The notes: generated by a model not told the origin, from the letters alone. Shown: positions 6,715 through 16,498, numbered from the stretch's first letter. The stretch is DNA of 62,471 bases from Bacteroidota bacterium (GCA_021300195.1 JAJTIE010000019.1:1-62471); one strand, 5' to 3'. Numbers and translations: made by a program.

Positions 6715-6810
6715 CAGGCCCGGAGTGGGGGCCGGGTGCCCTGGCTGGGGCTTTGACAGCCCTCTTGGTTTGGATCAAATCTTTATAAATTGCCTCGCAA
6801 AACTGCTCTT

Positions 6811-6828
6811 AATCTTAATCTTAATCTT
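6811..6828 (+). repeat. Three AATCTT repeats ahead of the first subtilisin
   Basis: Three perfect AATCTT hexamers end one base before the ATG at 6830. The paralogous gene has two hexamers (9361-9372) directly before its ATG. The copy-number difference changes leader length, and such tracts can vary by strand slippage. Confidence 0.8.
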
Positions 6829-6829
6829 T

Positions 6830-9132
6830 ATGAGACGCAAAAGCATTGGATCACGAAGAATTTTACCACAGCTGGTGCTGCTCGCCTTCCTGCTGCCAGG
6901 TAGCACCCAGGTGTATGCCCAGGGTAGGCCCGTGGCACCCACCCCCCCACCCGGACAATAGAGGCAAGTGGCCTATCGCCCAGAACCGCCAAACTACTGC
7001 TAGACCTGGAGGAAGCGGAGCAGCGGGGCCTGAGCAAAGCACCGGACGCACTGGATAAAATCCGCGAGGAGTACAAGCTGGTGCGCAAGAATGGCCAACT
7101 CTACGCGCATACCTTTATCCATACACAAGGGGCGGTAGACTTGGCGCACTATGGCGTTTTGTACGATGCCCGCAAGGAGCCAGGTAATGTGTTAAAGGCG
7201 CTTGTTCCGGTTTCCAACCTAAGGAGCCTGGCTGCCGACCCCGCCGTGAAGTACATGGAGATAGGAAAACCCGTAAAAGTAAAACTGGACGCGGCCCGAA
7301 GCGCTACACGGGTGGATGAGGTGCATGCAGGCACGGGCCTCGCCAGCGCCTATACGGGCGAAGGCGTAGTGGTAGGCATTATTGATATAGGCATGGACTA
7401 CGCCCACCCTACTTTTTTTGATCAAAGCGGTACTGCAAACTATCGGATAAAGCGAGTTTGGGACCAGAATGCTGAGGATGGTACTACGCCCGCAAACTAT
7501 GACTATGGTGCTGAGTACACCACCCAGCAGAGCATATTGGATGCAGCCTATGACCTGCCTGGGGACGTACCGCACGCCACCCATGTAACAGGTATAGCCG
7601 CCGGATCGGGTGGGGGGCTGGCTAGCTATGTAGGCGTAGCCCCGGAGAGCGAAATTGTTTACGTGTCTATTTCTCAGGCAGATGGCTCCATAGCAGACGC
7701 AGCCGAATACATATTTGATTATGCAACCTCGGTAAACAAGCCCTGTGTTATAAACATGAGCCTAGGCATACATGAGGGTCCGCATGATGGCAATTCGACC
7801 CTGGACAAGGCCTTTGACCAGCTGGCTGGGCCAGGTCGGCTACTGGTTGGGTCTGCGGGTAATGAGGGCGATATCCCGCTGCATTTGCAGAAGGTATTCT
7901 CGGCTACCAATAATCAGCTTTATTCGTTTGTCCTCTTCCCGGATAATTCGGTGGCTGGCTCTACCTATGTGGATATCTGGGGAGAACCGGGCCAAACCTT
8001 TCAGGTGGCAGTCCATGTGTATAATCAGGAGACGGATGAGTTCGAGGCCTCTACAAGCCTGGTGTCTACCAGTTCGGATCAGGCTCTTGACTTTACCCTG
8101 GTAGATCAGGATACGGAGGCCGGGGATGAGACCAAAGTATTTATTGGCACAGAGGCCAGCTCAGAAAACAACAACAAACCACACGCCTACATCACGTTCG
8201 ACCATTCAACTCAGGATGATGATTTCAAGCCTGTGCTGGTAGAGGTGCGGGCTAGCTCAGGCACCGTACATGTGTGGGCGGAAGACCCCAATATGTTTAC
8301 CGCCGGGGGTAAGGCTGCTCCCTTTATGGATGGCAACACAAGCTATACGGTAGGCGAGATAGGGGGTACGGGCAAGAGTGTAATAACCGCGGGTGCCTAC
8401 AACACCAAAAAGACCTGGACTGCACTGGGTGGGGAAACCGTTACGCAGAGTTATAGTCTGTACGAGATTGCCGATTTCTCCAGCCAGGGGCCTACGGTAG
8501 ATGGACGCATCAAGCCTGATATAACTGCACCGGGAAACTATGTTGTTTCTGCTATCAGCACATTTGGAAACTCAATTCCGGGCGAGTTCGATGATATCTT
8601 TATAGCGGAGGTGGGCGCAGGGGGCGCTGGCCACTACTACGGGGCATTTCAGGGTACTTCCATGGCTTCGCCCATGGTGGCTGGCACCCTGGCCCTGATG
8701 CTGGAGGCAAACCCCAGCCTGACCCCTACCCAGGCACGCACGCTGCTGAGTAGTGGTGCCATTACGGATACCCATACAGGTACCATCCCCACGGCCGGTA
8801 GCAATACCTGGGGCTGGGGCAAGTTGAACGCTCAGGCCAGCCTCCAGCTGCTCACCGGCGCTACCTCACGTGCGCAGGCAGATCCGTCCTCCAGCTTTCT
8901 GGTCTTCCCCAACCCCAGCCAGGGTACGCTACAGGTGGTGCTGGCAGATGGCGGATCTTCTGCTTATTCGGGCTACCGCCTGGTGAATGCGCTGGGACAA
9001 ACCGTCTCTAGCCAGTCTATTGGTATCAGCACCGGTCAGTTCGAGATCCGGGGCTTGCCAGCTGGTATGTACTCACTCATTCTAGATTCTGCCACCCAGT
9101 CGGTAGCACAAAAAGTAGTGGTACAGCCCTAG
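6830..9132 (+). CDS. Secreted subtilisin A, signal peptide in a different frame (-1 shift)
   Basis: A peptidase S8 with a T9SS type A sorting domain. ATG at 6830 opens a signal peptide (MRRKSI...VYAQG) and a Pro linker that stops at TAG 6959. The enzyme continues in the -1 frame, open from 6928, through 9132. The frames overlap only at 6928-6958, around a C7 run containing in-phase C CCC CCA (6943-6949). A -1 shift there gives about 767 residues. Catalytic Asp is at 7384 (DIGMD), His at 7573 (HATHVTG) and Ser at 8659 (GTSMASP). The C-terminal 75 residues have the FPNPSQGTL...GLPAGMYSLIL sorting pattern. Without a shift only an unexported enzyme could be made, for instance from GTG 7081. The cause may be programmed shifting, phase variation or a sequence error. 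Confidence 0.85.
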
Positions 9133-9220
9133 GCAGTGCCCAGAGAAAGGGCTTGCATGGCCTGCCTCAGGTGGATTGCATGGCCCACCCACTACACCCA
9201 TACACTTACTACACTTAATT

Positions 9221-9257
9221 GGGGGATGGAGCGCAACAAGGCTCCATCCCCCTTTTT
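9221..9257 (+). terminator. Terminator after the first subtilisin gene
   Basis: A perfect 12-bp stem (9221-9232 with 9241-9252), eight-base loop and five Ts. Confidence 0.92.
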
Positions 9258-9311
9258 GTTTGATCGCAACACCGTTTGTGTGCGTAAGTTTATCGTCATG
9301 TTAGATTTAGA

Positions 9312-9342
9312 TTTGGATTAAATCTTTATAGATATATATTTG
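9312..9342 (+). promoter_or_regulatory. Promoter of the second subtilisin gene
   Basis: TTTG (9312-9315), 19-base spacer and TATATTTG (9335-9342). The matching stretch before the first subtilisin (about 6769-6792) has the same TTTG and following bases but lacks about seven bases and has a poorer -7 box (TAAATTG). The two copies probably differ in promoter strength. Confidence 0.75.
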
Positions 9343-9372
9343 CAGCAAAAAACTGCTCTTAATCTTAATCTT

Positions 9373-11729
9373 ATGAGACGCAAAAGCATTACATCACGAA
9401 GGATTTTACCACATCTGGTACTACTCGCCCTCCTGCTGCCAGGCAGCGCCCAGGTGTATGCCCAGGGTAGGCCCGTGGCACCCACCCCCCCCCCACCCGG
9501 ACGATGGTGACAAGAGGGCTTTCGCCCGAGGCTGCTTCGCTGCTGCTAGACCTGGAGGCTGCACCCCTACAAAAACAACCTGCAGACCTGGAGGGCTTGC
9601 AGAGAAAGTATGGCCTGATACGTAAAAATGACCAGCTATATGCGCTGGCTTTCGTTCACACAAATGGCCAGCCCGACCTAGCCTCATATGGTGTTATATG
9701 CCGACCCGGCCAGATCAACGGCTCAATATTAAGAGCAATGGTACCTGTTTCGGGAATAAGAGCTGTAGCAGCAGATCCTGCTGTGCAGTATCTGGAACTG
9801 GGAAAATCCGCAAGAGTGCGGCTGGATAATACAGCCCGCAGACTTTCGGGCATTGATGCGGTACATGCCGGTGGCGGTGGCCTACCCAGTGCCTACAAGG
9901 GCAAAGACGTAGTGGTTGGTGTCATTGACATCGGCATTGACTTTACACACCCTACGTTTTTTGATCAAAGTGGCACCCAAAACTACCGGATAAAGAAGGC
10001 ATGGTTGCAGGCAGATACGGACGGAAACCCACCCGCAAACTATGACTATGGTGCAGAATACACGGGCCAAGCCGAACTGCTGGCCAAGGAAGACGACAGA
10101 CCCCGCGCAGAATATTCTCCTGAAGAATGGGCGGGTGGAACTTTTTCTCATGCCACGGTTGTAAGCGGCATAGTTGCCGGATCGGGCGGCGGAAAAGACC
10201 AATACAGGGGCGTAGCACCCGAGAGTGAGCTTGTGATTGTGTCTATTGATGGTGGAGTAGAAACCAGTGTATTTACAACCCGGGTTTTCGATGCAGTTGA
10301 GTATATATTTGACTATGCTGCTTCGGTAAACAAGCCTTGTGTGATTAACATGAGCCTGGGCACGCACGAAGGCCCACACGATGGCACTTCGACCCTGGAT
10401 AAGGGCTTTGACCAGGTGACCGGCCCTGGCCGGCTGCTGGTAGGGAGTGCAGGCAACGAAGGAACTGATAGGCTGCACGTACGCAAAACCTTTAGCCCAT
10501 CGGATAACAAAATGTATTCCGGGCTTGATTTTTTCGGAAGTGGTATTGGTCAAGCGTTTATAGACATCTGGGGCGATCCGGGCCATAGCTATCAGGTAGC
10601 CGTACACCTGTATGATAGGAATGCAGACCAGATACTTGCCTCTACCAGCCTGATTAACTTTTCGGCAGCAAGTAATTCACAAACAAACACCTTCAAGCTG
10701 ATTGACAATGATCTGGTTAATCCGGATACAACTGGTATCACGATAAATAATGAGGTTTTTCCGGGTAACCAGAAGCCGCACGCCTACATCAAATTTGACA
10801 ATAGCAATCAGGATGACAGCGCCCTGGTAGTACTGGTGGAGGTAAGGGCTACTTCGGGTGGCGTACACGTTTGGACTGAAAGATGCAGTTTTACTGCTTA
10901 TAACAAGCCCGCGCCATTTAGAGGTGGAGATCTGGAGTACTCGGTAGGAGAGGTTGGCGGTACAGGCAATAGCGTTATAAGCGTGGGCGCGTATAACAGC
11001 ACGCTGCAGTGGACAAGCTTAGGCGGAATGGTTACGGATAAAGCCGCACCGGATGAATTGCTGGGAGATATTGCTGGATTTTCCAGCATAGGTCCCACGG
11101 CCGATGGACGCACCAAGCCCGACATAGCGGCACCCGGCCAGGATATTATTTCTTCTTCTTCTTTATTCGGCCAGTCATCCCCCGACTATTCCGTACTAGC
11201 AGACACAATGGTGCTCGGCGGAAAAGTACATGTGTTTCAGGCCTTGCAGGGCACTTCGTTTTCCTCTCCCATGGTAGCTGGTGCCCTGGCGCTGGCGCTG
11301 GAGGCCAACTCCAGCCTGACCCCAGACCAGGCGCGGGCCCTGCTGAAGAGCAGCGCTACTACCGATGTATACACAGGCAGCATTCCCACCACCGGCAGCA
11401 ACACCTGGGGCTGGGGCAAGCTATCCGTACTGCGTAGCCTACAGCAGCTCAATGGCATCACCAGTACATCAACAGCCCGGCTAGGTAGTGCGCTGCTTGT
11501 ATACCCCAACCCCAGCCAGGGTACCCTGCACGTGGTGCTAGGCGATGGAGCCAGCTCGCCCTACACACAGTGCCGACTGGTGAGCACCTTGGGCCAGACT
11601 GTCTATAGCCAGTCTATTGGCACCGGCACCCGGCAGCTAGAGCTTAGCGGCCTGCCCGCTGGCCTCTACACCCTCATCCTGGATGGCGGCACCGAGCCCG
11701 TAGCACAAAAAGTAGTGGTACAGCCCTAG
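9373..11729 (+). CDS. Secreted subtilisin B, same -1 frameshift after the signal peptide
   Basis: A tandem paralogue of the gene at 6830. ATG 9373 directly follows two AATCTT repeats and encodes a near-identical signal peptide, which stops at TGA 9508. The enzyme is in the -1 frame, open from 9471, to 11729. The frames overlap around a C10 run holding the same in-phase C CCC CCA (9489-9495). A -1 shift gives about 785 residues. Catalytic Asp is near 9927 (DIGID), His at 10149 (SHATVVSG, with the second His of the usual HGTH replaced) and Ser is in GTSFSSP. A T9SS type A domain ends the protein. ATG 9504 could start an unexported form. Ends of the two genes are nearly identical, centres are not. 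Confidence 0.85.
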
Positions 11730-11760
11730 GCAGTACCTGCTTGCTTGCATTAGCGAGAAA

Positions 11761-12634: not shown

Positions 12635-13909
12635 TTATACTTTCGGGCTGATTGCCAGGTTGCGCAGCTGCTGCAGCTTCAGCTCCATAAATTCGGCCAG
12701 CTGCTGGGGTTGCAGGTTTTCCATTGCAATAAAGAGGTCCTTTTCGCCCCTGCCGCTGGCATTTATCACAATGTGCTGTTCGGGTGGCAGGCTGGGTGCC
12801 AGCTCCAGGGCGTAGGCCACGGCATGCAGGCTCTCCAGTGCGGGTACCACCCCCTCGTGGCTCAGGATGGTGCGGTAGGCCTGGCGCACCTGCTCGTCTG
12901 TAGCTGCACGAAACTGCACGCGTCCGGCATCGTACAGCCAGGCCAGTATGGGGCTTACGCCGCAGTAGTCTAGCCCGGCACTGATGCTGCTGGTGGGCGC
13001 TATGTTGCCATCCGCGTCCTGCAGGATGTAGCTGTAGTAGCCCTCGTAGATGCCCTTCTGTAGCCTTCGGAAGCGGGCTGCATGTGCTCCATAGCCCTCA
13101 CCGTGGCCCCCTGCCTCTACGCCGATCAGCTGCACGTCTGGCTCATCCAGAAAGTCGAAGAACGCGCCCATGGCATTGCTACCCCCACCCACACAGGCAA
13201 TAACGTAGTGGGGCAGCCTGCCAAAGGCCTGTAGTGCCTGCTCGCGCACCTCTTCGCCAATGATCTTCTGGAAGAAGGTATTCATCTTTGGGTAGGGGTT
13301 CGGGCCAATAACGGTGCCAATCAGGTAATGGGTATCTTCCGGATGGCTTAGCAGGTCCTTCATGGCGGCTACTACGGCGTCATTCAGGGTCTGCTGCCCT
13401 TCCTCTACGGGCACTACCTCTGCCCCCATCATTTGCATATAGAATACATTGGGGCGCTGGCGCAGGTAGTCTTTGTAGCCCATGTAGATGGTGCAGGGCA
13501 TGCCATAGCGGGCGCACAGGCTGGCAGTAGCCAGGCCATGCTGGCCTGCGCCGGTTTCGGCTATAATGCGCCTGCGGCCCATGTGGCGGGCCACGATGAT
13601 CTGGCCCAGCACATGGTTTATCTTGTGTGCCCCGGTGTGGTTTAGCCCCTCGTTTTTGATGTATAGCTGTGCACCGCCCAGTTTATGGCTCAGGTTTCGC
13701 AGGGGGGTGAAGGCTGTGGGGCGGCCACTGATCTCCACGTAGGCCTGCTTCAGCTCGGCCAGAAAGGCAGGATCCGTCTGTAGCTGCTCAAAGGCTGCCG
13801 CCAGCGCATCGGTATTGGCGCGTATGGCCTCGGGCACATAGGCCCCCCCGTATTCGCCAAAGTAGCCGGTGCTTTGCAGAATGGTATTTCGGTATGCGGT
13901 CATGTTCAC
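12635..13909 (-). CDS. trpB: Tryptophan synthase beta subunit
   Basis: A 424-residue pyridoxal-phosphate enzyme that joins indole and serine to make tryptophan. The PLP lysine lies in HTGAHKINHVLGQ, with the phosphate loop GGGSNAMG and the ETGAGQHG motif of the substrate site. It is slightly longer than the usual 390-400 residues because of extra residues at both ends. The start could be the first Met or Met3. It follows DAHP synthase by 21 bases and precedes trpA by seven. Confidence 0.95.
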   Translation of the reverse strand: MNMTAYRNTILQSTGYFGEYGGAYVPEAIRANTDALAAAFEQLQTDPAFLAELKQAYVEISGRPTAFTPLRNLSHKLGGAQLYIKNEGLNHTGAHKINHVLGQIIVARHMGRRRIIAETGAGQHGLATASLCARYGMPCTIYMGYKDYLRQRPNVFYMQMMGAEVVPVEEGQQTLNDAVVAAMKDLLSHPEDTHYLIGTVIGPNPYPKMNTFFQKIIGEEVREQALQAFGRLPHYVIACVGGGSNAMGAFFDFLDEPDVQLIGVEAGGHGEGYGAHAARFRRLQKGIYEGYYSYILQDADGNIAPTSSISAGLDYCGVSPILAWLYDAGRVQFRAATDEQVRQAYRTILSHEGVVPALESLHAVAYALELAPSLPPEQHIVINASGRGEKDLFIAMENLQPQQLAEFMELKLQQLRNLAISPKV

Positions 13910-15445: not shown

Positions 15446-16498
15446 GTGAAACCCTGCCTCCTACTCCTTGCCCTGCTGGCCACCGGCCTGCACGCCCAGG
15501 ATAGCACCCTGTACCTCACTGTATATCTGGACACTACTACGGCTATGATCTGGGCCGATCCGCGGGCCACGAGCGCCCCTACCTGTATGCTGCCAATCAA
15601 CACAACAATTTCAACCTGAACCTACTGGCCCTGAGGCTAACCTGCACTGCCGGCTGGTACCGCCTGCAGGCTACCCCTGCCCTGGGCACCTACATGGCTG
15701 CCAACTATGCCGCCGAGCCGGCCGAACTGCGCTACCTGATAGATGCCTACGGGGGTATCCGTATCCACAAGGACATCTGGCTAGACGCGGGCATACTGCC
15801 CTCGCCATTCGGCTACGAGGGGGCACTGAGCCACGAGCTGCCCACCTATACCCGCAGCTTGTCGGCCGAAAACTCGCCCTACTACCTGGCTGGGGCCCGG
15901 CTAAGCCTACCCCTTTGCCCCCGGCTAAATGGGTACGCCTTTGTGGTAAATGGCTGGCAGAACATAGCCGAGACGAATGATGCCAAAGCTGTAATAGGCC
16001 AGCTGCAGTACCAGGCGAGCAAAAAGCTGCTGCTAAACGCCAGCGCCTATGTGGGCAATGAGCAGACCGTGGACAGCCTGGGGCCCCGCATGCGTAGCTT
16101 CCTGGACCTGTATGCCTACTGGCAGCCGTCGGACGGGGTGAGCCTGCTGCTGCTGTGCGACCTGGGCAGCCAGCAGGGCCGGCAGGCTGCCGATGGGCCC
16201 GGCGGCCACTGCCAGCGGCATAGCCAGCTACCGCTGGGCCCGGTACTGGCGCAGTAGCCTGCGGGCCGAGTACTACAGCGACCCCGATGCGGCAAACCTG
16301 ACCAGCCTGACCCACCCGGGGGCGGGCGTAGTACTGTATGGCAGCAGCCTAGGGCTAGACTACCTGCCCACTACCCAAGCCATGCTGAGGCTAGAGGCCA
16401 GGTACCTGCAGGCGGGGTCTAACGTGTTTCCCGAAGAAGGGGGCACTACCCGCCAAAGGTGGCTGCTGACAGCTGCCCTCAGTATAAAAATAGAGTAG
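15446..16498 (+). pseudogene. Outer-membrane porin (beta-barrel porin-2 type) with two frameshifts
   Basis: Three frames together encode one OmpL/porin-2-like outer-membrane barrel of about 350 residues. GTG 15446 opens a signal peptide (VKPCLLLLALLATGLHAQ). A missing base near 15533 shifts to the frame reading YYGYDLGRS, NFNLNLLALR and then ANYAAEP, LDAGILPSPFGYE, SLSAENSPYYLAGARLS and VVNGWQ, all typical of the family. A second shift, an extra base or two missing between about 16150 and 16200, leads to LRAEYYSDPD and the final strand TTRQRWLLTAALSIKIE, stop at 16498. Neither shift is in a long homopolymer. It may be a decaying gene or hold sequence errors. I see nothing else between the tRNA and 15446. 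Confidence 0.75.

Follow-up and report, generated by a model that had tools for sequence, protein, structure and literature searches.

Two tandem subtilisin genes of a Bacteroidota bacterium with signal peptide and protease frames offset at a poly-C tract: possible slipped-strand OFF alleles of type IX secretion cargo

Two tandem genes for subtilisin-type proteases are found at nucleotides 6830–11729 of the window, the whole stretch of 62,471 nucleotides that was analysed from a Bacteroidota bacterium (GCA_021300195.1, JAJTIE010000019.1). The genome is a draft of 2.67 Mb in 71 contigs and is 98.6% complete. In both alleles as sequenced the Sec signal peptide is complete and is out of frame with the protease. 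The coding features are as follows.

6830–6961, + strand: signal-peptide open reading frame of gene 1, 43 aa, MRRKSIGSRRILPQLVLLAFLLPGSTQVYAQGRPVAPTPPPGQ, stop codon TAG at 6959–6961
6928–9132, + strand: protease frame of gene 1, Peptidase_S8 domain and type IX secretion system (T9SS) type A CTD (CTD at 8902–9126)
6942–6948, + strand: C7 tract at which the frame of gene 1 breaks by −1, with the heptamer C CCC CCA at 6943–6949
9373–9510, + strand: signal-peptide open reading frame of gene 2, 45 aa, MRRKSITSRRILPHLVLLALLLPGSAQVYAQGRPVAPTPPPPGRW, stop codon TGA at 9508–9510
9471–11729, + strand: protease frame of gene 2, Peptidase_S8 domain and T9SS type A CTD (CTD at 11499–11723)
9485–9494, + strand: C10 tract at which the frame of gene 2 breaks by −1, with the heptamer C CCC CCA at 9489–9495

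Open reading frames and translations place the protease frame at −1 relative to the signal-peptide frame in both genes, and the overlap of the two frames is confined in each to the neighbourhood of the C run. At both 6943 and 9489 the heptamer C CCC CCA lies in the phase of the signal-peptide frame. An earlier reading of this DNA, made from the sequence alone, had described the −1 offset in both genes, the C7 and C10 runs, the in-phase heptamer and zero-frame stops at 6959 and 9508; the frames were re-derived at these coordinates, and every one of these elements is present. Past the tract there are 733 and 751 codons with no other lesion, and the S8 domain and CTD are whole in both genes. Peptidase_S8 matches have E values of 1e-37 to 1e-40 (Pfam/NCBIfam), and the catalytic motifs are legible in the translations (D, IIDIGMD and VIDIGID; H, HATHVTG and HATVVSG; S, GTSMASP and GTSFSSP). 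The T9SS sorting domains that the sequence-only reading assigned to both proteases are borne out by the same profile collections, with Por_Secre_tail/TIGR04183 scoring 36.9 bits in each (cut-off 23), which places both among T9SS type A cargo.

The proteases resemble ordinary T9SS type A subtilases of Bacteroidota, such as a 39% identical homologue in Chitinophagaceae bacterium IBVUCB1, and share with them the S8 domain, the CTD, the signal peptide and a GLSP-type stretch. Homologues in other genomes have the signal peptide, a short linker and a ‘GLSPxTAxLLLDL’-like stretch all in one frame, and the leader open reading frame and the protease are therefore halves of one gene. The homologues differ in that, where their N termini are readable (about 27 sequences, all distant), the signal peptide is in frame and there is neither a C/G run nor a break at the signal-peptide/protease junction. 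Such a comparison had been named beforehand as the test of a conserved mechanism, and its outcome argues against one. No congener of the source was found among the genomes searched, where the nearest relative belongs to another genus and has no orthologue; a pattern scan of viral contigs gave no match.

In gene 2 an ATG at 9504 overlaps the leader stop TGA at 9508, which is a translational-coupling arrangement. It could be taken to mean that the proteases are cytosolic by design, with an internal start coupled to the leader stop and with the leader open reading frame encoding a separate short peptide. Gene 1, however, has no start codon at the homologous site, nor anywhere before 7081. In addition, both proteins keep the T9SS CTD, a domain that works only after Sec export, and the homologues carry the signal peptide fused in frame. 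A cytosolic design is thus scarcely credible.

Programmed −1 frameshifting requires a slippery site, usually together with a stimulator. If ribosomes shifted by −1 at C CCC CCA, as a programmed event or as a useful leak, a fraction of full-length, exported protease would be made. The two copies have in common the run length modulo 3 and the in-phase heptamer, and both downstream frames remain open. The genes are similar to the X_XXZ_ZZN type of −1 frameshifting in the IS3 family (PMC4066793) in that their heptamer fits this pattern and is read in the phase that it requires. In E. coli, C_CC.C_CC.A with no stimulator shifts at above 0.10% (PMC4066793), which is a weak intrinsic slipperiness, and a small leak of full-length product is possible. 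The differences from the IS3 family are that the present motif is inherently weak, that no stimulator was found, and that conservation is limited to one genome. In a folding computation limited to structures other than pseudoknots, the flanking RNA has z-scores of 0.03 to 1.56 and so folds no better than shuffled sequence. It should be pointed out that the heptamer arises from any C run before an A in this phase and so is not independent evidence, that any two broken frames would agree modulo 3 half of the time by chance, and that shared descent of the leader accounts for the similarity. Together with homologues that have no run or break, the folding result leaves programmed frameshifting disfavoured among the readings offered earlier, and we consider it very unlikely. 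A case of frameshift suppression by rpoB (PMC7022156) concerns +1 shifting on CCC-AGG and is inapplicable to a −1 break.

The similarity of the two genes is concentrated at their 5′ ends, where the following features are found.

6763–6965, + strand: leader block of gene 1 (promoter region, 5′ UTR, signal peptide and C run), 81–91% identical to the gene 2 block
6769–6792, + strand: homologous promoter region of gene 1, with TTTG retained and the −7 box gone, 7-nt deletion relative to gene 2
9300–9515, + strand: leader block of gene 2, 81–91% identical to the gene 1 block
9312–9342, + strand: promoter of gene 2, TTTG (9312–9315), 19 nt, TATATTTG (9335–9342), an exact match to the Bacteroidota −33/−7 consensus

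The 5′ block of about 200 bp is about 90% identical at the DNA level, whereas the gene bodies are about 60% identical on average (38–82% per 60 columns of the paralogue alignment, the last 19 bases excepted), and thus the leader was homogenised, by gene conversion or recent copying. The block is present in just these two copies genome-wide; a genome-wide leader family sharing the C run was not found. Inside the homogenised block the tract length differs by 3 between the paralogues, and a C7 against a C10 in otherwise about 90% identical surroundings indicates that the tract itself changes length. The 5′ UTRs also differ: a TTAATC repeat occurs in unequal copy numbers, and gene 1 has a 7-nt gap, through which its −7 box is lost. 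Promoters were compared with the published −33/−7 consensus (PMC6847099), and the loss of the −7 box from gene 1 resembles decay. Judging from the alignment, the frame break may have been copied along with the leader, in which case the two breaks are not necessarily independent; the repeated break has a weight somewhere between that of one observation and that of two.

Across the genome there are 71 C/G runs of at least 9, of which 69 were read with a frame-shift HMM trained on this genome; 24 sit in intact coding sequence and most others are intergenic. A 462-kb sample has 66 runs of exactly 7 C/G, about the Markov-model expectation, and in it 64 coding C/G runs of 7–8 are intact against one frame break, that of gene 1, which is also the sole start-less break there containing a homopolymer of at least 6. 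A C7 run is thus no rarity in itself, whereas a broken frame at such a run is rare. The sample stretches were hand-picked, contain no other run of at least 9, and are no guide to how densely such runs occur. Breaks close to gene ends or beside start codons escape the HMM, and gene 2 was missed for the latter reason. LepA, FabH, a Dus-like protein and a glycosyltransferase, identified by eye in the translations, are among the products of intact genes with C/G runs of 7–10, and dozens of further genes are intact likewise. With runs of this length intact in so many genes, homopolymer undercalling is an unlikely cause of two broken neighbours, and sequencing error at homopolymers was rejected as a general cause on the survey of 69 runs and the 462-kb sample. 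The sequence-only reading had leaned towards phase variation or error: the repeated undercall is disfavoured, and phase variation is the best candidate among its three readings.

Other HMM shift calls in the window, at 12647, 18095, 21382, 24207, 29136, 32742, 33316, 35013, 42777 and 51969, are ordinary overlapping or adjacent operon genes, and calls at long runs elsewhere (contig positions C18:55154, C28:53307 and C71:2805) are gene boundaries or intact genes.

An error of a more specific kind may be considered, namely that a strain mixture or near-identical paralogue segments led the assembly or consensus to wrong tract lengths, and that the genes are in fact continuous. The draft is in 71 contigs, identical flanks of about 45 nt beside both tracts could confuse short-k assembly, and breaks in the genome cluster in variable, paralogous genes. 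Contig ends often lie inside T9SS cargo genes or at G/C runs (contig C25 opens with G16), which suggests that repeats and tracts broke the assembly. Against such an artefact, C/G runs of 7–10 elsewhere are in frame (24 intact coding runs of at least 9, and 64 of 7–8), and two neighbours would have to be wrong in the same direction at different tract lengths. We regard it as improbable.

Profile TIGR04183 has 47 matches in the genome and TIGR04131 has 22; 50 cargo genes are testable, meaning that the frame is contained within the examined stretch. Eleven of the 50 are broken, both subtilisins included, and the others are given here by contig and position.

C18:134086–134095, G10 with a −1 break in a surface protein with a T9SS type-B gliding-motility C-terminal domain
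C35:40211, T9SS type A protein of about 3000 aa whose frame breaks three times, including once at G9 and once at G8
C2:3596, cargo gene broken at G7
C5:209717, cargo gene broken near G5
C71:6, T9SS type A protein broken directly behind the signal peptide, at a G5C4 stretch
C28:40499, cargo gene broken near T6, CTD match below the cut-off
C9:10900 and C21:41620, broken cargo genes
C12:7840, cargo gene whose third codon is an in-frame stop, with a complete signal peptide following it

The break at C18:134086 falls in the middle of a repeat, and an intact copy of the repeat later in that protein shows the expected reading. Frame breakage thus characterises the T9SS cargo of this genome, and C/G tracts are the site of some breaks but not of all. 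For C/G runs of at least 7, six are broken and 32 intact in cargo genes versus none broken of 64 elsewhere (Fisher p about 0.002), a comparison that is uneven in that cargo genes were checked by hand for the signal peptide, the others were read by HMM, and a few cargo genes are in the sample. In the only genome available from the same family, one of 20 cargo genes clearly has no readable signal peptide, which is not significantly different from 11 of 50 (p 0.16). The gene sprA, for the T9SS translocon SprA, is intact, and export is therefore available.

These findings bear on whether the two subtilisin genes are early pseudogenes, in which slippage broke the leader, the break arose independently or was spread by gene conversion, and the genes are decaying with other T9SS cargo. 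Several of the 11 broken cargo genes have no homopolymer at the break, gene 1 has lost its −7 box, and the leader is homogenised. A porin-like outer-membrane gene with a signal peptide, nearby at 15446–16498, is likewise broken twice, near 15520, immediately after the signal peptide, and again near 16190; there is no homopolymer at either site. On the other side, each subtilisin gene has more than 700 codons with no further lesion, the gene 2 promoter is still exact, and sprA is intact. In addition, an old shared break followed by neutrality predicts stop codons: if the break is as old as the homogenisation of the leader and has been neutral since, the chance of no stop is 6–7% per gene, an estimate based on 8–9% leader divergence between the copies (about 4.5% each) and on substitutions only. 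This low chance indicates that the breaks are probably recent, or are reversed from time to time, or are tolerated. Decay of the pair is a close rival to the reading preferred below, though we rate it somewhat lower.

The reading that we prefer, with a probability of roughly 0.45, is that both genes are real slipped-strand OFF alleles at the C tract, and that they may represent a contingency switch similar to that of NalP. Both subtilisins would once have been intact and exported by the T9SS, and the frame would then have slipped by one base at the poly-C just after the signal-peptide cleavage site. With replication slippage in the tract, the signal-peptide frame would meet a stop within about 14 bases, and from the OFF allele the protease would either not be made or be made with no export signal. 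Slippage in the opposite direction would restore the frame, so that the tract could act as an on/off switch. The arrangement may have become common to both genes through homogenisation of the leader, by duplication or gene conversion and with the C run included, and the run lengths would have diverged afterwards. The layout of the genes, the −1 break, the whole domains, the homogenised leader and the intact state of similar runs in other genes are observed; the presence of the lesion in the DNA of living cells, its reversibility and any selective value of switching are inferred.

Phase-variable genes are expected to have a tract in the coding region or promoter where a unit change alters frame or expression, with the rest of the gene intact and constrained, and their defining feature is a tract length that varies among cells or strains to give in-frame (ON) alleles. 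The C7 and C10 tracts lie at the frame breaks, and the remainder of each gene is intact, with the exception of the damaged gene 1 promoter, which makes the pair candidates for the class. Switching is ranked ahead of decay since neither gene has a coding lesion outside the tract and the gene 2 promoter is exact, and decay is kept close behind because of the gene 1 −7 box and the breaks in other cargo genes that no switch could repair. Against switching, C7 is short for a fast switch and both copies are OFF, no homologue elsewhere carries such a tract at the junction, and breakage in this genome is not specific to C tracts, since a nonsense codon or a break in ordinary sequence has disabled other cargo genes. 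It should be added that a single sequence would look alike under recent decay and under reversible switching.

The closest parallels are nalP and mspA of Neisseria meningitidis, whose poly-C tracts range from 6 to 15 and from 6 to 14, respectively, and which are ON at particular lengths modulo 3; about half of meningococcal strains are ON for nalP (PMC3723659). The products are exported autotransporters, NalP being a subtilisin-like serine protease, and as in the present genes a C tract in the coding region sets the frame by its length modulo 3. The nalP range covers both 7 and 10. The present proteases differ in that they are T9SS cargo and not autotransporters, the tract is right behind the signal peptide, and there are two tandem copies with one shared leader, each known from a single sequence.

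The frame break is real in the sequence and its mechanism ordinary in kind, not a new translational trick; its status may be that of a switch, of decay or, less probably, of a consensus error. What is new is the frequency of broken frames among this genome's T9SS cargo, often though not always at C/G runs, and the loss of the −7 box from gene 1. The broader proposal, that the lineage uses C/G-tract switches to vary T9SS-exported surface and secreted proteins, and that gene conversion keeps the leader and switch of the subtilisin pair alike, is speculative and we hold it to be doubtful. In the literature available for searching, no paper linked phase variation with both type IX secretion and a frameshift. 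Should tract length prove variable among cells of the source population, the known range of poly-C phase variation in exported subtilisins would extend from Neisseria autotransporters to T9SS cargo of Bacteroidota. Invariant tracts would make the pair a case of decaying cargo genes or of an error in the draft genome, and a warning to those who annotate secretomes from single genomes.

The last 30 or so bases of the two genes (9114–9143 and 11711–11740), which comprise the end of the CTD, the stop codon and a few bases beyond, are again near-identical. Coming after a diverged body, they are likely a second patch of homogenisation, as far as the alignment of the paralogues can indicate.
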